64,000 bases of DNA, taken from Verrucomicrobiota bacterium. Lineage in GTDB: Bacteria; Verrucomicrobiota; Verrucomicrobiia; Limisphaerales; UBA9464. Made by a program: the position numbers and the translations under genes. A model generated the notes under the pieces. It had not been told where the DNA came from and ran no database searches. It saw only the letters and a program-made list of their open reading frames with translations. The stretch spans positions 1 through 64,000 of the forward strand of contig JAFLEF010000002.1 of assembly GCA_017309115.1 (NCBI GenBank), in the 5' to 3' direction. Shown here piece after piece: positions 14,029-23,310 of the stretch (positions are counted from its first letter, which is position 1; the number at the start of each line of letters is the position of its first letter).

Positions 14029-14405
14029 ACCCGGTAGGGCGAGGTTCCACCGAGCCGTCCCCGTAGCCGCCGACGGCAGGAGGCGCAATCCAGTCCCTTC
14101 GCGTCACTTGGCCTTACGCCCGTGGAGTTCATTGCGGGCCGGTTTCGCGCGAAGCGTCTTGGAGTGCGGTCGCGGAACGCAGTGGAGCTACCGCTTTTCG
14201 TCCCGGCGAGTGACCTGTCGAACCACTTCTAACGCCCACCGCACAACGCAGTCCAGAACGTCCGAAGGATCTCCCGCGGAGGGCGCGGAGGCCGCGGAGT
14301 CTGCAAACCCCGAATCGAACGAAGAGCACGAATGGGAACCAGACTTACCTATTGCCCCGTACACCTTGGCTACCCGGTAGGGTGAGGCTTCACCGAACCA
14401 TTCGC
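14029..14405 (+). repeat. Island repeat, copy A
   Basis: First copy of a long dispersed repeat. It begins ACCCGGTAGGGCGAGGTTCC, has the core GTAGCCGCCGACGGCAGG at 14063, runs through the GGAGTGCGGTCGCGGAACGC block and the CTCCCGCGGAGGGCGCGGAGG block (about 14266-14300), and ends with CCTTGGCTACCCGGTAG followed by a degenerate new head. The core can form an imperfect hairpin (GCCGCC with GGAGGC). Continuous reading frames through it are artefacts of high G+C; it is not convincingly coding. Confidence 0.85.
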
Positions 14406-14450: not shown

Positions 14451-14481
14451 ATTGCGATTCAATCCACCCTCGGTTACTCGT

Positions 14482-14733
14482 TTGAATGTGAGCTTCGACT
14501 ACGCCAGCTTCTTTGACCGGAGCCCCGACGTTTGCGGCGGTACGACCGTCATTAAGGGGACGCGTGTGACTGTGAGAACCTTGCTCGCAAGCCTAGCCGA
14601 GGGCTCATCGGTCGAAGAGTTACAGGCGGACTTTCCCACGGTGTCGCGAGAGGCGATCCGTGCAGTAATCGCGTTCGCCGCTGCGTCCGCCGAGGAAGAC
14701 CAACCCGTGCCGCCAATGCCCGCGCTGGCATGA
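14482..14733 (+). CDS. DUF433 family antitoxin-like protein
   Basis: 83-aa protein. DUF433 proteins have a small helix-turn-helix fold and act as antitoxins of DUF5615 (PIN-like) toxins. Seen here: 'RSPDVCGGTTVIKGTRVTVRTLLASLAEG' in which 'P.VCGG...I.GTRV' is the family signature, and a helix-turn-helix like FPTVSREAIRAVIAFA. I prefer TTG at 14482 (just before NVSFDYASF); GTG at 14488 or TTG at 14452 are alternatives. The stop overlaps the toxin start by ATGA. It should bind its own promoter and neutralise the neighbouring toxin, which is however truncated. Confidence 0.8.
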   Translation: MNVSFDYASFFDRSPDVCGGTTVIKGTRVTVRTLLASLAEGSSVEELQADFPTVSREAIRAVIAFAAASAEEDQPVPPMPALA

Positions 14734-15092
14734 AGGTTAAGCTGGACGAAAACCTGCCAGAATCACTGGTGTCTGCCCTGTCGGTTCTGGGTCATGACGT
14801 TGACACGGTGCGGTTCGAGGGGTTAGCCGGCCTAAGCGACCCAAAGATCTGGCGGGCTTGCCAATGCGATGAACGGTTTCTCATCACGCAGGACCTCGAC
14901 TTCTCAGACGTTCGCCAGTTCAAGCCAGGAACCCATCACGGTCTGATGCTCGTGCGAAGGATCTCCCGCGGAGGCCGCGGAGTCTGGGAACCCCGAATCG
15001 AACAAAGAGCACGAATGGGAACCAGACTTACCTATTGCCCCTTACCCCTTGGCTACCCGGTAGTGCGAGGTTCCACCGAGCCGTTCCCGTAG
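14730..15092 (+). pseudogene. DUF5615 PIN-like toxin, 3' end replaced by repeat
   Basis: The first about 75 residues match the DUF5615 family: MKVKLDENLP with the acidic pair, LGHDVDTV, and FLITQDLDFSD, then HHGLMLVR. At nt 14955 the sequence switches to the island repeat (CGAAGGATCTCCCGCGGAGG), so residues from about 76 on (RISRGGRG...) are repeat-encoded and the family's C-terminal third, usually about 35-40 aa, is missing. A chimeric 120-aa product ends by chance at 15092. The active-site acids of the N-terminal half are still present, but the fold is probably incomplete. Likely inactive toxin beside an intact antitoxin. Confidence 0.8.
14955..15054 (+). repeat. Island repeat, partial copy B (3' half)
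   Basis: Starts abruptly inside the DUF5615 gene with CGAAGGATCTCCCGCGGAGG and continues with the GAGCACGAATGGGAACCAGAC and CTATTGCCCCTTACCCC text that is almost identical to the tail of copy A (14263-14370). It runs directly into copy C, so B and C are tandem. Confidence 0.85.
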
Positions 15093-15420
15093 CCGCCGAC
15101 GGCAGGAGGCGCCATCCAGTCCCTTCGCGTCACCTGGCCTTTCGCCCGTGGAGTTCAGTGCGGGCCAGTTTCACGCGAAGCGTCTTGGAGTGCGGTCGCG
15201 GAACGCAGTGGAGCTACCGCTTTTCGTCCCGGCGAGTGACCCGTCGAACTACTTCTAACGCCCCCCCGCACAATGCAGTCCAGAACGTCCGAAGGGTCTC
15301 CCGCGGAGGCCGCGGAGTCTGGGAACCACGAATCGAACGAAGAGCTCGAATGGCCACCCAACCTGCCTCTTACCCCTTGGCTCCTGGGCCGGGCGAGGTC
15401 CCACCGAGCCGACCGAGGCG
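15055..15420 (+). repeat. Island repeat, copy C
   Basis: Full copy: head ACCCGGTAGTGCGAGGTTCC, core GTAGCCGCCGACGGCAGG at 15089, body nearly identical to copy A from about 15115 to 15330, then a degenerate tail CCTTGGCTCCTGGGCC and a further partial head (GGGCGAGGTCCCACCGAGCC). It ends about 50 bases before the next gene. Confidence 0.85.
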
Positions 15421-16318: not shown

Positions 16319-16371
16319 GGTTCCTACCCACCCGCCCACTTCACCTTCTTTCGATTGCGAGCTGTTCTCGC

Positions 16372-16650
16372 GTAGCCGCCGACGGCAGGAGGCGCCATCC
16401 AATCCCCTCGCGTCACTTGGCCTTTCAACCGTGGAGTTCAGTGCGGGCCGGTTTCACGCGAAGTGTCTTGGAGTGCGGTTGCGCAACGCAGTGGAGCTAC
16501 CGCTTTTCGTCCCGGCGGGTGACCTGTCGAACTACTTCTAACGCCCAACCACACAACGCAGTCCAGAACGTCCGAAGGATCTCCCGCGGAGGGCGCGGAG
16601 CTCGCGGAGTCGGAATGGAAACCGCGAAGGGCACGAATGGGAGACCAGTC
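16372..16650 (+). repeat. Island repeat, copy D
   Basis: Core GTAGCCGCCGACGGCAGG at 16372, then the same body as copies A and C to CTCCCGCGGAGGGCGCGGAG at about 16580 and CGAAGGGCACGAATGGGAG. It lacks the TACCCGGTAG head and the CCCTTGG tail. The remaining bases to 16763 hold no feature I can name. Confidence 0.85.
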
Positions 16651-16763
16651 CGCGCGAACCGCCTGTCTTCGTTTCGAGTTTCGAGTTCAGACGTGACAGT
16701 TCATCGAATGCTGGCTTCGCTGCGAGCTCGGTCGGTTGATGAACTCCGGCCTTGGGCGTGATC

Positions 16764-17180
16764 ATGACCTTGACCAGACTTCGGCGTCTTTTCAAAGGAT
16801 GGGGTGCACTCAGAAGGCTCTACCCCGATCAAGACCTGGTTGTTGACCGTACTTTCTCCGAGTCATCGCTCGACTTGGGTGGCTCGTTATTTGGCCGCTT
16901 CAGCATGTGTATTGATGTAGAGGTCGGAGATTACGGGATTCGTCTGAGCGTAGTAGTGTTGTCGGTAGGGCCTCTCCGTTCGCCCATTGTATTGCCGTGG
17001 ACCGCGATTGAAAGCTGCACCCGGGCGCGTCTTTGGTGGTTCTTCGAGGCACTTCGGATCACCGTTCAAGGGTGGCCGGAACCCATCCTCCTAGGCCGGT
17101 TCCTATGGAAGTACGGTGACGCCTATTCCCACATCATAAAGCGTTGGCAGCAGGCAGGAGTTCAAGGCGAGAGCAAATGA
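16764..17180 (+). CDS. Hypothetical protein (138 aa)
   Basis: Starts MTLTRLRRLFKGW; an in-frame GTG two codons upstream is an alternative start. The sequence has LPWTAIESCTRARLWWFFEALRITV, a mix of strands and an amphipathic segment that resembles PH-like small proteins found in Planctomycetes and Verrucomicrobia, and no signal peptide or catalytic motif. It stands alone after repeat copy D and ends 41 bases before the pafA stop, converging with the proteasome operon. Composition and strand pattern suggest a real gene, but function is unknown. Confidence 0.55.
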   Translation: MTLTRLRRLFKGWGALRRLYPDQDLVVDRTFSESSLDLGGSLFGRFSMCIDVEVGDYGIRLSVVVLSVGPLRSPIVLPWTAIESCTRARLWWFFEALRITVQGWPEPILLGRFLWKYGDAYSHIIKRWQQAGVQGESK

Positions 17181-17221: not shown

Positions 17222-18652
17222 TCACTCCACTGGTCGGATCGACTCGGTGCCGGGCCAGGGGGCTTGACGGACTTCCTGGAGCCACTGGTCGGCTGCGGTG
17301 GGGTCGCAGTCGAAGGGATTCAGGAGCATCAGGGGATTGACGCCGTGGGTGTCCACGATTTCCCAGTCCACAAAACACCCGCGTCCTTCGGAGGCGAGCT
17401 GGCGCATGACCCGGGAGCGAATGGCGGCGCGGGTGTCGGCAGGAGGCACGGTCTTGGCCTGCTGAACCTGGGTGTCGGTGGGTTCCCACCGGGAATTGGT
17501 GTCGGCCAGGGACCAGGCGAGATTTCGCAGCGGATCCACGTGGTGGAACTCCAAGTCCTGGGAACGAAGCCAGGGGGAACTCCAGGACAGTCCCTCAGCC
17601 TCCAGGAATTGGGAGAACAGCCAACGCTTGGTGATCCAATCCACCCGGCCCACCAAGGACTCCGGTGACTGACTCAAGCCGGCGAGGGTTTGCGCCCAAT
17701 CCTCCAACACACCGTCGGTCTCGGCATCGCGGCCGGCGAACTCCCGTTGCGCGGCCGACTGGAACTGACCTAGCAATTCGAGAGCGTCCATGGTTTCACC
17801 GCCGGCGAGGGTCACCTGCCAGGGTCCGTCCGGGCGCCGGGACAGATCGCGGAAGGTGCTCACGGAATCGGCCAGGGCGAGCGGCGGCAACTGATCGGCC
17901 TCCAACAAATCCAACACCAGCGCGGTCGTACCAATCTTCAACGCCAGCGTCGTGGGCAAGACGCTGGTGTCGCCGTGCAGCAGATGCAGTCGGCGGAACT
18001 TCCGGGCATCGGCCAGCGGTTCGTCCCGGGTGTTGATGATGGCGCGGTTGAACTGAACCCATTCGAACAGTTCGTTCTGGATGTAGTCGGCGCGTTGCGA
18101 GATCTGAAACGGGAAGACCTCCGGCGCCGGATCGCCTCCCCCGCGAATTTCGATTCCCGGTGACATGCCCACCTTACCGGCTCCGCACATCAGGACGCGG
18201 ACAGTCAGGAAGGCGAGCAGGGACTGAACATTACGTTCGCTCAGCGGCGCCGTGCGGCGGACCAGATAGTTCTCATGACAGCCGAAGGTGGCGCCGGAAT
18301 AATGATCAATGTTGTTCCGGACGAAGCCCGCGCGATTGGTGTAGTTCAGGGCGGCGAGCCCTTCGTTCAACAGGAGGTCATTGGCGCGGTCGTGACGAAT
18401 CAGGTCCTGGAGGGAGAGGCATTCTGCGGTGCACAGCTCCAGATGGCCCATGTCGATGTAGGCTCGGCCGCCGTTGAAGAGAAAGCCCCCGTTGCCGGCG
18501 GGCTCATCCCAATCGCGCTGATGCTGGTCGATCAGTCCGTAGCGGTTGCCGACAAAGAGCCAGTCGCGCACCCGGCGGATGATTTCCTGGGTGGTTCCCG
18601 GGTCATTCGACAGACAGCCATACTCGGTTTCCAGACCAGCGAGGCGAATCAT
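17222..18652 (-). CDS. pafA: Pup-protein ligase (PafA-like)
   Basis: Ligase that joins the C-terminal glutamate of Pup to lysines of target proteins, using ATP. The 476-aa protein has the glutamine-synthetase-like fold of the PafA/Dop family: GLETEYG at the N-terminus (metal-binding Glu), FNGGRAYIDMG with the proposed catalytic Asp, TFGCHENYLV, FQISQRADYI, INTRDEPLAD and LKIGTTALVLDLLEA. It lacks the extra 'RWDY...RGF' loop of Dop, so I call it PafA. Odd point: the usual DVGSHPEY is DMGHLELC, one residue shorter and without Pro-Glu-Tyr. It is the last gene of the operon, 30 nt after prcA. Confidence 0.85.
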   Translation of the reverse strand: MIRLAGLETEYGCLSNDPGTTQEIIRRVRDWLFVGNRYGLIDQHQRDWDEPAGNGGFLFNGGRAYIDMGHLELCTAECLSLQDLIRHDRANDLLLNEGLAALNYTNRAGFVRNNIDHYSGATFGCHENYLVRRTAPLSERNVQSLLAFLTVRVLMCGAGKVGMSPGIEIRGGGDPAPEVFPFQISQRADYIQNELFEWVQFNRAIINTRDEPLADARKFRRLHLLHGDTSVLPTTLALKIGTTALVLDLLEADQLPPLALADSVSTFRDLSRRPDGPWQVTLAGGETMDALELLGQFQSAAQREFAGRDAETDGVLEDWAQTLAGLSQSPESLVGRVDWITKRWLFSQFLEAEGLSWSSPWLRSQDLEFHHVDPLRNLAWSLADTNSRWEPTDTQVQQAKTVPPADTRAAIRSRVMRQLASEGRGCFVDWEIVDTHGVNPLMLLNPFDCDPTAADQWLQEVRQAPWPGTESIRPVE

Positions 18653-18682
18653 GGGAAACTCCGGGAAGAAAAAGTCAGCAGA

Positions 18683-19435
18683 CTAGGGGGAGGGCGGAGG
18701 GAGCAGTTGATTCAGATCTAGAACTTCGTAGCGAACGAGACGCGAGGACCGGCGGTTCAGCCAGCCGAGTTCGATTTGAGCCCCGGCCGTCGCCGTTCGC
18801 CAGCCGGCAGCCCGCTCCTCCAGCGACGGAGAAGGCTCCTTCGCGGTCTGCTGCGTTTGCAGCAGCCACCAGGTTTCCAGGAGTTGTTGGGCGGCTTCCG
18901 CCAGCGAAAGGGAATCCCGCCATTTCTGCTCCAGGGCGGCTTGGGCGGTACTCTCTTCATCGGGATCGGCCGCCACCACCCGAGCGCCGCCCATTTGAAC
19001 AGAATAAGTGCCATCGAAGTGCACGCGCACCAAAAGATCGCGACTGGGCGTGGTGCCCAACTCGGCAAAGACAAACTCACCTAACACCGGAGCGGTGAAG
19101 AGTTGTTCGAAGTTCTGCTTGAGCTGGGCGCTCAGCCCGAAGCCCACCAAGCGGCGCAGACTGACGTCTTCGGCGGCCCGGGTGAAGGCCTCGAGATGCG
19201 CCGCATCAATCGCGGCCTGGCGGATTCGCTCGAGATCGGCCGGATGTCCCAATCCCGCCATGGCATGGCGATCGTGGATTTCGAACACCTTTCCCAGGCC
19301 ACGAGATACACCCAGCAGCAGAATCCCGTCGGCGAGGCATCCGGCCAGCACGGGGGAACCTCCCTTGAGCTGGTCGCGGACGTATTCGCGCCGGTTTCCA
19401 ATGGCTTCCAACCAACGATACGGTTCTTCAGTCAT
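18683..19435 (-). CDS. prcA: Proteasome alpha subunit
   Basis: Forms the outer rings of the 20S proteasome. The 250-aa protein begins MTEEPYRWLEAIGNRREYVRDQLKGG, similar to the bacterial alpha N-terminal gating segment, then GGSPVLAGCLADGILLLGVSRGLGKVFEIHDRHAMAGLG, matching 'P.LAY..GVLF...N.SR.L.KI.E..DR.AFAA.G' of actinobacterial PrcA. No N-terminal threonine nucleophile, as expected. The C-terminal part past residue 190 is Gln/Ala-rich and divergent. Overlaps prcB by 8 bases. Sequence alone gives moderate identity; gene order makes it secure. Confidence 0.88.
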   Translation of the reverse strand: MTEEPYRWLEAIGNRREYVRDQLKGGSPVLAGCLADGILLLGVSRGLGKVFEIHDRHAMAGLGHPADLERIRQAAIDAAHLEAFTRAAEDVSLRRLVGFGLSAQLKQNFEQLFTAPVLGEFVFAELGTTPSRDLLVRVHFDGTYSVQMGGARVVAADPDEESTAQAALEQKWRDSLSLAEAAQQLLETWWLLQTQQTAKEPSPSLEERAAGWRTATAGAQIELGWLNRRSSRLVRYEVLDLNQLLPPPSP

Positions 19436-20216
19436 GGTCGGTTCCGGCCAGCGCGGCTGATTGTTGTTCTTCGGTCACGGTTTCCACGCCGGTCGCTCGC
19501 AAAATCTTGAGCGTGGCAAATAGTTGCGCCTCCGGGTTCACGCCGCCCGTGGCCGAATCAAACTCAGCGGCCGTCATGAGCAGACGCAGGGCGAACCGCA
19601 CGGCCTCCGGCAAAGTCATTTCCACCGGTTTGGGAGATCCGTGTCGTTCCTGGAACGCCAGGATGCTCCGAATCGTCCCGCTGCCGCTGCCGCTGGCGGC
19701 GTAATTGACGGCCTGGAATTGCGCGCCGAGTGGGTCGTAGAAGTAGATGCGCGGTTGAGCGGGAGACACCGTGTGATCCACACCGGCAAAGAGCGGGACC
19801 ACGATTCCCACGCCCTGAAGCGCCAGCGGCATGTTCTCCCGCAATAGCCGAGCCAGGGCGCGAACCTTGGCGGGTAGGCTCAACGGCTGCAGCTGGCTGC
19901 GGCGGTAGTACTCAAAAGAGGTTTGCAGCACGCGGGCCATTTCGAACGCGGTCGCCGGAACACCCGCGATGGCCAACAGGGAGGAGTCATCAATCTCGAC
20001 GACCTTCTCCACGGCATCGGTGACGATGATGTTGCCGGCGGTGGCCCGACGGTCGCCGGCCATTAGAATTCCCTCGGCGAACCGGAAGGCAAAGACGGTG
20101 GTGGCCTGGGTGATCGCCGGACCGTCTCCGCCCAGTTCCATTCGCGGCAACGCCATCTGGGACCGCTGGAGCAGACTGACAAAATCTCCGGCCAGCGGAG
20201 TCGCCGGAGTGCTCAT
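19428..20216 (-). CDS. prcB: Proteasome beta subunit
   Basis: Proteolytic subunit. The 262-aa precursor has a 38-residue propeptide and then TTVFAFRFAEGILMAGDRRATAGN, so Thr39 should be the mature N-terminal nucleophile. With Thr39 as residue 1, Asp17 (AGDRRAT) and Lys33 (DAVEKVVEID) are in the expected positions, and YAASGSGSG supplies the Ser129-like loop. The residue before the cleavage site is Ala, not the usual Gly. The ATG overlaps the pup stop (ATGA), the same coupling as in actinobacteria. Confidence 0.95.
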   Translation of the reverse strand: MSTPATPLAGDFVSLLQRSQMALPRMELGGDGPAITQATTVFAFRFAEGILMAGDRRATAGNIIVTDAVEKVVEIDDSSLLAIAGVPATAFEMARVLQTSFEYYRRSQLQPLSLPAKVRALARLLRENMPLALQGVGIVVPLFAGVDHTVSPAQPRIYFYDPLGAQFQAVNYAASGSGSGTIRSILAFQERHGSPKPVEMTLPEAVRFALRLLMTAAEFDSATGGVNPEAQLFATLKILRATGVETVTEEQQSAALAGTDHD

Positions 20217-20386
20217 TGGCCGGTTCGTTGCCGGTATCGTTTGGCCTGGTCCGGATCCACTTTCTTCATCCGTTCGAGCAGACTCTTCACGTCAGGTTTG
20301 TCGACTTGCGGGGTGCTTGGACCCTCACCGCCCCCGCTGCGCGGTTGGGGCATTGCCGGTTTCGGTTTTTGGAGCTGATCAGGCAT
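20213..20386 (-). CDS. pup: Prokaryotic ubiquitin-like protein Pup
   Basis: 57-aa modifier, read by hand on the minus strand from ATG at 20386 to TGA at 20213. The N-terminal half is Pro/Gln/Gly-rich and disordered; the C-terminal half is a charged helix (VKSLLERMKKVD) followed by AKRYRQRTGQ. It ends in Gly-Gln, so deamidation to Glu by Dop is expected before ligation. The usual ending GGQ is TGQ here. It starts 3 nt after the dop stop and its stop overlaps the prcB start. Short length makes it easy to miss; gene order dop-pup-prcB makes the call very firm. Confidence 0.95.
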   Translation of the reverse strand: MPDQLQKPKPAMPQPRSGGGEGPSTPQVDKPDVKSLLERMKKVDPDQAKRYRQRTGQ

Positions 20387-20389
20387 AGG

Positions 20390-21919
20390 TCAAAGGTTCA
20401 GAAGTGTGGGAATTTCGTCGGGAAACCTCGCCTTTTCCACGGCGACACGGTAGCGCGACACCGTTTCCGAGGCGAACAAATCTAGAAGCGAAATGCGGAC
20501 TGGGCCGGTGCGTCCCTCGAGGGTCACGTGATCCCACTGAGCCGAGATCACTGCGGACCCAAACTTCTGAATGCACAGGCCGCGGATCAACGCCCGGGTC
20601 GTTTCTGGTGGATGATGCTCGGCCCGGCGCACGTCTTCTTCGGCCGGAACACCGCGAATAGCCCCCGCCTGTTCTAGACCGAAGTAGAGTCCCTCCTCGG
20701 GATCGAGCCGATGGTAGGCCAAATCCAAACTTTGCAGCCACGGGTCGTCCTCGGCGACGCCTTGCGCCTGCTGGAATTCCCGGATTAATGCGTGTTTGGC
20801 GACCCAATCCAGTCGGTCGCCGCAGCGGGTCGGATCGGTTGCCAGATCGTTGAGTACTTCCTCCCAATCCGCCACCAGCGCCTGTCGCTCTGGCGTGTGC
20901 AAGGGAACCCGGGCTCGGACGGCGTCGAGATAGGCGCGCTGCACCTCCAGGGCGGTGGACACTCGTCCGCCGGAAACCACTTCCCAGCGCCAGTCCGGAT
21001 CCCGCGAAATGTAGCGCAAGGCGGCCAGCGGATCGTCGAGAGCGGGCAGGGAAGCCGCCAGCTTGGCCGGGGTCGGGGTGCCGGCCAGTAGTTCCAACAC
21101 CAGCGCAGTGGTGCCGACCTTCAGGCGCGTGGCAAAGGGACTCAGATTGGCGTCACCAAGAATTACGTGAAATCGGCGCCAATGATGAGCGTTGGCGTGC
21201 GGTTCATCCCGGGTATTGATGAGCGGGCGCCGTTGCATGGTGTCCACGCTCTGGAGCTCGCTGAAAAAGTCCGACCGCTGGGAAATCTGGAAGCCGGGCC
21301 CAACAAATTCATCCTCGGCTTCCAGCCCGAATTTGCCGGCCCCGGTGAAGATCTGCCGCGTGACTAGGAAGGCTTCGATGCCCCTGACCAACGCCTTCCA
21401 GTCGAGACGGCGGGGCAGAAGGTAGTTCTCGTGACACCCATAGCTGTGGCCTCGGAAGTCGGTGTTGTTTTTGTAGAGCAGAACCGCTTCGGAGCGCTCG
21501 GACTGCACATGCTGCGCACAGGCCATGGCCAAGCGCTCCCCGGCACGATCCTGGGCCAGTAACTCCGCCAGCGTGCTGCACTCTGGCGTGCAGTATTCGG
21601 GATGGGCGTGGTCGTTGTAAAAGCGGGCCCCGTTAGCCAGCACCAGATCGCTTTTGATCTCGGTGAAACTCATCGGCCGGGCGGCGTCCTGCGCAAAGTA
21701 GTTGGCCTCGTCGGTATCCTGGCGCAGTTCCTCGACGCGGAACCCGCGCATGTCCTGATGCGGATCCTCACACGCATAGTCCCAGCGCATGCGCACCCCG
21801 GGCTCGATCGCCGCCCGGACCAGCGCGATGGAATCCGCCACGACGTCGTAGTCGCCCTCCGTGTCCCGGGCGATGCCGAACTCGGTTTCCAAACCGAATA
21901 AAACGGTCGGTGTCTCCAC
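20390..21919 (-). CDS. dop: Pup deamidase/depupylase
   Basis: Converts the C-terminal Gln of Pup to Glu and removes Pup from targets. The 509-aa protein has GLETEFG, NGARFYNDHAHPEYCTPEC with the proposed catalytic Asp, YKNNTDFRGHSYGCHENYLL, FQISQRSDFF, INTRDEPHANA and LKVGTTALVLELL. The segment RMRWDYACEDPHQDMRGF corresponds to the Dop-specific loop absent from PafA. Start is GTG at 21919 (METPTVLFG); no better upstream start is visible and the divergent gene limits it. First gene of the operon; the promoter must lie in 21920-22053. Confidence 0.93.
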   Translation of the reverse strand: METPTVLFGLETEFGIARDTEGDYDVVADSIALVRAAIEPGVRMRWDYACEDPHQDMRGFRVEELRQDTDEANYFAQDAARPMSFTEIKSDLVLANGARFYNDHAHPEYCTPECSTLAELLAQDRAGERLAMACAQHVQSERSEAVLLYKNNTDFRGHSYGCHENYLLPRRLDWKALVRGIEAFLVTRQIFTGAGKFGLEAEDEFVGPGFQISQRSDFFSELQSVDTMQRRPLINTRDEPHANAHHWRRFHVILGDANLSPFATRLKVGTTALVLELLAGTPTPAKLAASLPALDDPLAALRYISRDPDWRWEVVSGGRVSTALEVQRAYLDAVRARVPLHTPERQALVADWEEVLNDLATDPTRCGDRLDWVAKHALIREFQQAQGVAEDDPWLQSLDLAYHRLDPEEGLYFGLEQAGAIRGVPAEEDVRRAEHHPPETTRALIRGLCIQKFGSAVISAQWDHVTLEGRTGPVRISLLDLFASETVSRYRVAVEKARFPDEIPTLLNL

Positions 21920-22053
21920 GCGGAATCAACAAGACATCTATTCGTACGGCGGCAACTCCCAAGTTGGAAATCTGCCGCGGAAGACACGCCTTCGGATTCG
22001 AGCTTGGCGGCGCCCGCCCGTTGGCCCGACGCTTTGCCAGTACTTCTCATTGC
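21920..22053. promoter_or_regulatory. Divergent promoter region of dop and the SGNH gene
   Basis: 134 bases between two divergent starts, so both operons must be driven from here. I see no clear sigma-70 hexamer pair, palindrome or riboswitch. No ATPase gene is found on the proteasome side of it. Confidence 0.4.
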
Positions 22054-23310
22054 ATGAAAGCATTCTGGTCTTGGGTGGTCTGCGCGGGGTTGTGGGCCGG
22101 GTTCGGCGTTCACGGGGCGGACGCCGTGTCAGTGCGACTTCCGGCGACGGATGACGGGTTGCCGGGCAGCGGTCCGATTCGGCGCTACGATTGGTTCCAG
22201 GATTTGTGGACTAAAAAACGCACCGCCTGGGCGCAACGGGTGGAACTCGACCGGTACTCGTTGGTGTTCCTCGGGGATTCCATCACCCAAGGCTGGGGCG
22301 ACGATCTCGGTGGGAGTTTTCCGGGCGTCAAAGTGGCCAACCGCGGGATCAGCGGCGATACGACCCGGGGAATGTTGATCCGTCTGGCCGATGATGTTCT
22401 GGCGCTCAATCCGCTCGGCGTGGTGCTGCTCCTGGGCACCAACGATCTGGAAGAGGGCGCGGACCCGGAGACCATCGCGGGGAACGTCCGGCTCATCCTG
22501 GCGGAACTGAAACGGCACAATCCGCAGATGCCGATCATCCTGTGCGAAGTGTTCCCGAGTTCAGCCTCGAAGAAGCGGCCGGCGGAGAAGATCAAGAAGT
22601 TGAACGCGCTCTATGCGGCCTTGGTGAAGGGGGATCCGCAGGTGACCTTGGTGGAGACTTGGCCGTTGTTTGCCGATGCCCAAGGCGATGCCAAGGAAGC
22701 GCAGTTCCCGGACTTGCTGCATCCCAACGCCGCGGGCTATGCCCTGTGGGCGGCGGCGCTGCGTCCGATCTTGGCGACCCAGGGATTTCTGGAGACCACG
22801 CCGGATGTGTTCACGCCGGAGCCGGGGTTTGTCAGTTTGTTCAACGGACGCGACCTGACGGGCTGGGGATTTCGAACCAATGATTTCAGCGGATTATCAC
22901 GGAGTCCAGATGGACGGTATGTGGCCCGGCACGGTCGGCTGATTGTGACCACACCGCCGGAGCACAGCCGAGTCCAGCAACTCTGGACCACCCGTTCATT
23001 CCCCAAAAACTTCGTCCTGAAGCTGGAGTTTCGGGCGACGCCCAACGCCGACAGCGGCATTTTTATCCGCGAACCCCAGCTGCAATGCCGGGACTATCCG
23101 CTGGCGGGACCGTACAAGAACCTGAAGTCCTACCGACCTCAGGACTGGAATGAAGTCGTAGTGACCGTGAAGGACGGTATCGCGCACTGCACCTGCAATG
23201 GCGAGGTTTTGGAAGCGGCCTTGAAGGTGCCCCCGACCGGCCCCATCGGCTTGGAAGGCGATCGGGGGCAAATGGAATACCGCCGGATTCGCATTCGCGA
23301 GCTGCCCTGA
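22054..23310 (+). CDS. Secreted SGNH-hydrolase fused to a DUF1080 domain
   Basis: 418-aa exported protein. The ATG at 22054 gives a signal peptide (MKAFWSWVVCAGLWAGFG-VHGAD). The first domain is a SGNH/GDSL esterase: FLGDSITQGW (Ser), RGISGDTT (Gly), LGTNDLEEGAD (Asn) and DLLHPNAAGY (Asp-x-x-His). From about residue 250 a DUF1080/3-keto-disaccharide-hydrolase-like beta-sandwich begins (FVSLFNGRDLTGWGF, ...). Such two-domain proteins are common in Verrucomicrobia and Planctomycetes and probably strip acyl groups and process sugars of polysaccharides. Divergent from dop; the next gene ends 3 bases downstream on the other strand. Confidence 0.88.
   Translation: MKAFWSWVVCAGLWAGFGVHGADAVSVRLPATDDGLPGSGPIRRYDWFQDLWTKKRTAWAQRVELDRYSLVFLGDSITQGWGDDLGGSFPGVKVANRGISGDTTRGMLIRLADDVLALNPLGVVLLLGTNDLEEGADPETIAGNVRLILAELKRHNPQMPIILCEVFPSSASKKRPAEKIKKLNALYAALVKGDPQVTLVETWPLFADAQGDAKEAQFPDLLHPNAAGYALWAAALRPILATQGFLETTPDVFTPEPGFVSLFNGRDLTGWGFRTNDFSGLSRSPDGRYVARHGRLIVTTPPEHSRVQQLWTTRSFPKNFVLKLEFRATPNADSGIFIREPQLQCRDYPLAGPYKNLKSYRPQDWNEVVVTVKDGIAHCTCNGEVLEAALKVPPTGPIGLEGDRGQMEYRRIRIRELP

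Follow-up and report, generated by a model that had tools for sequence, protein, structure and literature searches.

Which ATPase serves a bacterial proteasome whose operon carries no ATPase gene, and how would it dock on the core particle? The question is raised by a 64,000-nt stretch of a Verrucomicrobiota bacterium (GenBank assembly GCA_017309115.1, contig JAFLEF010000002.1, positions 1 to 64,000; hereafter, the window), where five frames that appear intact lie on the minus strand at 17222–21919 in the order dop-UBact (pup)-prcB-prcA-pafA. This order, with stop/start overlaps or gaps of 3–30 bases, had been described in an earlier sequence-only reading and is confirmed here; its claim of a complete pupylation-proteasome gene set outside Actinobacteria is borne out by family matches. 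The operon is one further member of UBact (Pfam PF20513, NCBIfam NF033388), a form of the Pup-proteasome already known from Gram-negative bacteria. The name UBact reportedly goes back to a 2017 paper. We consider it probable that the operon and an ARC/Mpa ATPase gene on another contig together make up a complete actinobacterial-like UBact-proteasome, in which the UBact-type ARC docks differently, with a tyrosine-free tail.

The ATPase gene of the window genome

No remnant of an ARC gene was found when we looked for one inside the window. The whole genome contains one match to the proteasomal-ATPase OB family, at ~25.1–26.8 kb of contig C84 (positions 1018–2724 of locus L001), as anticipated by the earlier proposal that the unfoldase is encoded elsewhere. 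The 568-amino-acid product matches two OB domains (PF17758, PF16450) and the AAA domain (PF00004) above cut-off, and scores 412 bits with TIGR03689, below the equivalog cut-off of 505. In an AlphaFold2 model built from 12 sequences (mean predicted local distance difference test score 75.9, predicted template modelling score 0.54; confidence is moderate and domain placement weak), a 38-residue helix (59–96) precedes OB strands at 101–219, and the AAA domain is followed by a beta hairpin (463–478), a final strand (551–556) and a low-confidence tail. The predicted protein has the coiled coil, two OB, AAA and C-terminal beta-grasp plan of Mpa/ARC, the beta-grasp being read from the modelled strand elements and not from a domain model. 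Mpa is its top PDB match both by sequence and by fold (Foldseek E 3e-42). The sequence-only reading had advised looking for an ATPase with an N-terminal coiled coil and a GQYL-like tail: an ATPase with a predicted coiled coil is there, while GQYL is not, the C-terminus being RRSAV.

We assign the C84 gene to the window genome because its identity to the nearest relative is like that of the operon, because it groups with its genus in a tree, and because a dispersed 233-nt repeat has copies on both contigs. The nearest relative is a genome of the same genus, G197, with which ARC shares 76% identity as compared with 65–77% for the five operon proteins (Dop 73%, UBact 72%, PrcB 77%, PrcA 65%, PafA 68%). 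The three same-genus ARCs group with a value of 87 (not starred) in the Shimodaira-Hasegawa-like approximate likelihood ratio test. Since the gene is on a separate contig, 0.8 kb from its end, and the bin has a contamination of 3.69%, it could conceivably stem from a contaminant. This origin is very improbable in view of the congeneric nearest relative with operon-like identity, the repeat common to both contigs, and the fact that the genome holds a single ARC-type OB match.

The idea of a proteasome partner other than ARC could draw on the unlinked position of ARC in the window genome and on the existence of extra actinobacterial activators, Bpa and Cpa (PMC8223512; here and below, papers given by PMC number are cited from the parts available). 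However, ARC is present in this genome and accompanies UBact. Among 25 genomes searched, 23 have it; UBact, too, is missing from the other two, G194 and G195, which are congeneric with the window genome (G195 is only 79% complete). For 29 of 80 UBact loci scanned in named genomes, the whole genome was searched and ARC was found in 28, a count that includes one repeat (G273 duplicates G166). The Bpa family had no match in 10 genomes, but it had none in any control genome either, so its absence is not shown, and Cpa was not searched for. The proposal of a different partner is not supported by these data, and we regard it as the least probable of the explanations weighed here.

Tyrosine-free tails and the alpha-ring pocket

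To compare tails, we read 95 ARC C-termini ending at a stop codon, 85 of which are distinct when the last 150 residues are compared; some frames are truncated N-terminally at a contig end, down to 60 amino acids in the shortest. The sample represents two phyla, verrucomicrobial-type and HR16 (HRBIN16 is placed in Armatimonadota; PMC11071339), and the Pup systems of Nitrospirota, Planctomycetes and proteobacteria lie outside it. Tails of the HR16 phylum, in which the OB family matches 80 of 151 genomes, were taken only from loci returned by the search. A few verrucomicrobial-type records are named Klebsiella, Akkermansia, Proteobacteria or Betaproteobacteria; their ARCs sit among the verrucomicrobial rows of the tree.

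GQYL is absent from all 95 UBact-type C-termini (0/85 distinct). None of the 85 distinct tails has an aromatic residue at the second-last position, and thus none shows the HbYX pattern; none has a tyrosine in the last six residues. The great majority (78/85) end in Val/Ile-Val/Ile: 50 of 55 verrucomicrobial-type tails and 28 of 30 from the HR16 phylum. Entropy is 1.1–1.3 bits at the last two positions as compared with 2.4–3.5 bits at the preceding twelve, and the linker from a conserved EDW to the C-terminus is 31–41 residues long and variable in sequence. A conserved end behind a free linker has the look of a docking peptide. The control ARCs of Nonomuraea and Tsukamurella end in GQYL. According to PMC12288473, proteasome activation requires this motif in mycobacteria and HbYX in eukaryotes, and Mpa is still unable to drive robust degradation by the 20S particle in vitro. 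No description of tyrosine-less UBact-type ARC tails was found in the parts of the open-access literature searched; the main UBact paper is outside it.

The receiving pocket was mapped by profile alignment of PrcA to PDB chains. The numbering fits all five named residues, and structural alignment gives the same N-terminal offset. Among 83 distinct PrcA sequences from UBact loci (merged from 89 rows), the equivalent of Lys52 is lysine in 83/83, while that of Arg26 is never arginine (0/83), the position being taken by Pro, Gly, Thr, Ser, Asp, Ala, Glu or Val. In the 79 sequences that cover them, the Glu119 equivalent is always Leu, Val, Ile or Met (79/79) and the Asp144 equivalent always Asp (79/79). 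Arg26 and Glu119 are kept in mycobacterial, Rhodococcus and Nonomuraea PrcA. According to the available part of PMC9599533, in mycobacteria the tyrosine of the Mpa tail bonds Arg26 or Glu119 of PrcA, in two binding modes, and Asp144 and Ser146 hold the tail backbone. As aligned, then, ARC tail and PrcA pocket differ together from those of actinobacteria, the actinobacterial side of the comparison being three alpha subunits and two GQYL-bearing tails.

We infer the pathway and all enzyme activities, as well as the tyrosine-free docking mode of the UBact-type ARC, from sequence. Judging by their families, Dop would deamidate the C-terminal glutamine of UBact, PafA would ligate UBact to lysines of target proteins, and Dop would also recycle the tag. 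The ARC coiled coil would bind UBact, and the AAA ring would unfold the target and thread it into the PrcA/PrcB cylinder. At the docking step, the extreme C-terminus, mostly Val/Ile-Val/Ile, would enter the alpha pocket, where its carboxylate would sit on the lysine that is invariant in PrcA and its side chains would make aliphatic contacts, with no penultimate tyrosine involved. The gate might then be opened through another contact, for example that of the beta-grasp hairpin, or because the pocket responds differently, which is a guess. In its strongest form the proposal describes a third type of ATPase-20S coupling, where a tyrosine-free Val/Ile-Val/Ile tail has co-evolved with a pocket that keeps the lysine and is stripped of Arg and Glu, docking and gate opening being separate as in 11S activators; to this form we give somewhat less than even chances.

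The same tails and pockets could be read differently. The Val/Ile-Val/Ile tail may dock and open the gate just as GQYL or HbYX does, the aliphatic pair replacing tyrosine in a hydrophobic pocket. A mode of this kind agrees with how strongly the two final residues are conserved behind a variable linker and with the aliphatic nature of the Glu119 equivalent in every PrcA covering it; archaeal gate opening, moreover, involves an occupied hydrophobic pocket as one of its elements (PMC10349882). Nevertheless, the same source, as far as available, holds that subunit rotation in archaea is driven by a tyrosine-lysine bridge of fixed length, and a tyrosine-less tail would be unable to act likewise. 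Gate opening in the GQYL manner is in our opinion unlikely, though not by a wide measure.

A further explanation takes the tail out of docking altogether: ARC may be held in place by its beta-grasp hairpin or by some unknown adaptor, and the hydrophobic end may, for example, self-inhibit within the ring. In mycobacteria, the beta-grasp hairpin is reported to contact helix H0 and to matter for degradation (PMC9599533), and the tail can tuck into the ring (PMC8142254). On the other hand, the invariance of the pocket lysine is what would be expected if a free carboxylate binds there, although a structural role of this residue is possible. We find a tail without a major part in docking rather improbable.

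Several observations weigh against the favoured explanation, a complete UBact-proteasome with tyrosine-free docking of ARC. The window's own ARC, ending in Ser-Ala-Val, is one of the 7 exceptions to the Val/Ile-Val/Ile rule. Of three actinobacterial ARC C-termini compared, one, from a 414-amino-acid Streptomyces plasmid frame, is without GQYL as well; this frame is probably not a working copy. PafA, Dop, PrcA, PrcB and ARC each score under their NCBIfam equivalog cut-offs. Ser146, another mycobacterial contact, varies in UBact-type PrcA. The pocket alignments have ~20% identity, and the Glu119 column adjoins a two-residue gap. Of the two modes seen for mycobacterial Mpa, only one has the carboxylate bonded to Lys52, and it is not the five-subunit mode (PMC9599533); the lysine can thus go unused. 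Finally, the tyrosine in the archaeal 20S complex bonds the backbone of G19 (PMC10349882); the loss of Arg26 and Glu119 is therefore no proof against tyrosine binding and is suggestive only.

Gene order, distribution and surroundings of the operon

We next consider how unusual the separation of ARC from the operon is. In 23 genomes with both genes, ARC lies before dop in 13, before dop at a contig edge in 1 (G212), behind pafA in 2 (G196 and G197, both of the window's genus; the G196 gene is cut by a contig end), and on a contig other than that of UBact in 7 (the window genome, G000, and G207, G233, G248, G249, G013 and G166). Because of these 7 of 23 genomes, an unlinked ATPase is ordinary among genomes with UBact. 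The full order dop-UBact-prcB-prcA-pafA is found in 14 of 22 loci of relatives; the other 8 are partial, three of them (L034, L036 and L037) being near a contig end.

UBact itself was detected above cut-off in 8 of 194 genomes drawn from the phylum, the window's included (a ninth has a weak match), and in 16 of 59 genomes drawn as closer relatives, including 8 of 36 of the window's family. Pup in verrucomicrobia was reported in 2008 by Iyer and others (PMC2588565). The scan of named genomes covered the best 80 of 365 UBact relatives, none of them titled as Nitrospirota. In many of these 80 (many of L087–L156, Spartobacteria-like), the stretch examined contains a UBact-prcB-prcA block but none of dop, pafA and ARC. 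In a member of the window's family (G207, locus L047), UBact and prcB stand together, with prcA, dop and pafA not detected in a 16-kb stretch; this genome has two ATPase-type OB matches on contigs other than that of UBact (contigs C51, C32 and C11). Two order or family members (G231 and G201; loci L042 and L046) show ARC-dop-UBact-prcB-prcA with no pafA within 6.4 kb behind prcA.

The pathway has been proposed to have arisen in Actinobacteria with later transfer to other phyla (PMC7947786; PMC5666114), and transfer has also been proposed for Leptospirillum (PMC3511204). In a 2017 paper on Anbu, proteasome subunits of armatimonadetes, nitrospirae and verrucomicrobia fall in one cluster (PMC5666114). 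Our ARC tree has 88 rows, two of them actinobacterial, was made by a quick method, and has long branches meeting at the actinobacterial join; it cannot test an actinobacterial origin followed by transfer. The verrucomicrobial-type rows and the HR16-phylum rows each form one starred group, which lends no support to a recent transfer private to the window's lineage. Genus g108 groups with another family in this tree, and the system is patchy in the window's family (8/36 genomes); loss and exchange of the system within the phylum are therefore likely.

The five genes of the window operon, all on the minus strand, were assigned as follows. The first, dop (20390..21919), starts with GTG and encodes a predicted UBact deamidase/depupylase of 509 amino acids (PF03136, E 1e-146), which scores 435 bits with TIGR03688 and 333 bits with TIGR03686, reaching neither cut-off, and has an N-terminal segment of 92 residues. 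The Pup-type modifier UBact (20213..20386) has 57 amino acids and matches both PF20513 (E 7e-23) and NF033388 (76 bits, cut-off 35) above cut-off; it ends in RTGQ, and with this Gly-Gln end it would by analogy require deamidation before ligation. The 20S alpha and beta subunits are both encoded within this UBact locus. The beta subunit gene, prcB (19428..20216; PF00227, E 6e-27), includes a propeptide; Thr1 is residue 39, and catalytic Thr1, Asp17 and Lys33 are all kept. The alpha subunit encoded by prcA (18683..19435) is divergent. The last gene, pafA (17222..18652; PF03136, E 7e-108), encodes a predicted UBact ligase with a short N-terminal segment of 59 residues and almost equal scores with TIGR03686 (259 bits) and TIGR03688 (251 bits). 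PF03136, the Pup-ligase fold, has two matches genome-wide, Dop and PafA, which flank the modifier in this operon. Decay of the locus was rejected, the five frames being intact and the PrcB catalytic residues present. HslV or Anbu as a second core was rejected as well: neither was found, and PF00227 has a single match, on prcB, in the 95%-complete window genome.

Upstream of dop, a probable promoter region would span 21920..22053, provided that the divergent hydrolase gene starts at the ATG at 22054; a sigma-70 scan gave no match in this interval. The hydrolase (22054..23310, plus strand) is of a GDSL/3-keto-disaccharide type (PF13472 and PF06439) and stands outside the system. Its longest frame opens at 21910, and its product is probably secreted, as judged by eye from the N-terminus. 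The sequence-only reading had this gene replace ARC before dop, which we reject, since in the two same-genus relatives with the system, G196 and G197, ARC sits behind pafA and not before dop. G197 also has a divergent GDSL-type gene before dop (L041, 7124–7810, plus strand; called by eye from sequence); it differs from the window's gene and is not the GDSL-3-keto-disaccharide fusion. Proteins flanking the operon in the window had no tblastn match at 1e-12 in eight loci of relatives. Just downstream of pafA lie three copies of the 233-nt dispersed repeat (14060–14290, 15085–15317 and 16368–16600). Given its 50 matches genome-wide, one of them 6.7 kb upstream of ARC on C84, the repeat proves nothing about a relocation of ARC and serves only to tie the two contigs together. 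On the same side, at 14452–15092 (plus strand), a DUF433 gene overlaps a DUF5615/PIN-like gene, resembling a toxin-antitoxin pair, and a 142-amino-acid frame without a Pfam match lies behind pafA at 16752–17180 (plus strand).

Relation to known proteasome activators

The system of the window is like the UBact-proteasome of Gram-negative bacteria in its UBact, Dop, PafA, PrcA, PrcB and ARC ATPase; it differs from UBact loci with ARC before dop in having ARC on another contig, as do 6 further genomes of the 23. With the actinobacterial Pup-proteasome it shares gene set and order, homologous proteins and the ARC domain plan, whereas its modifier is of the UBact family, its ARC tail is without GQYL and its pocket without Arg26 and Glu119. 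The hydrophobic-Tyr-any C-terminus of HbYX-dependent activators (PAN, Rpt) is absent from the UBact-type ARCs.

The 11S activators are not known to be homologous to ARC. As a comparison of working principle only, those such as PA26 dock by their C-termini without a penultimate tyrosine, as proposed here for ARC; unlike ARC, they are heptamers whose activation loops open the gate (PMC10349882, in the part available). Since 11S activators lack the tyrosine and rely on other loops for gate opening, ARC may need the beta-grasp hairpin or some other contact for this step.

The pattern of tail and pocket matters more than the operon itself. An ATPase family that is tyrosine-free in every member read, across two phyla, would offer a direct test of which part of the tail binds the proteasome and which opens its gate.

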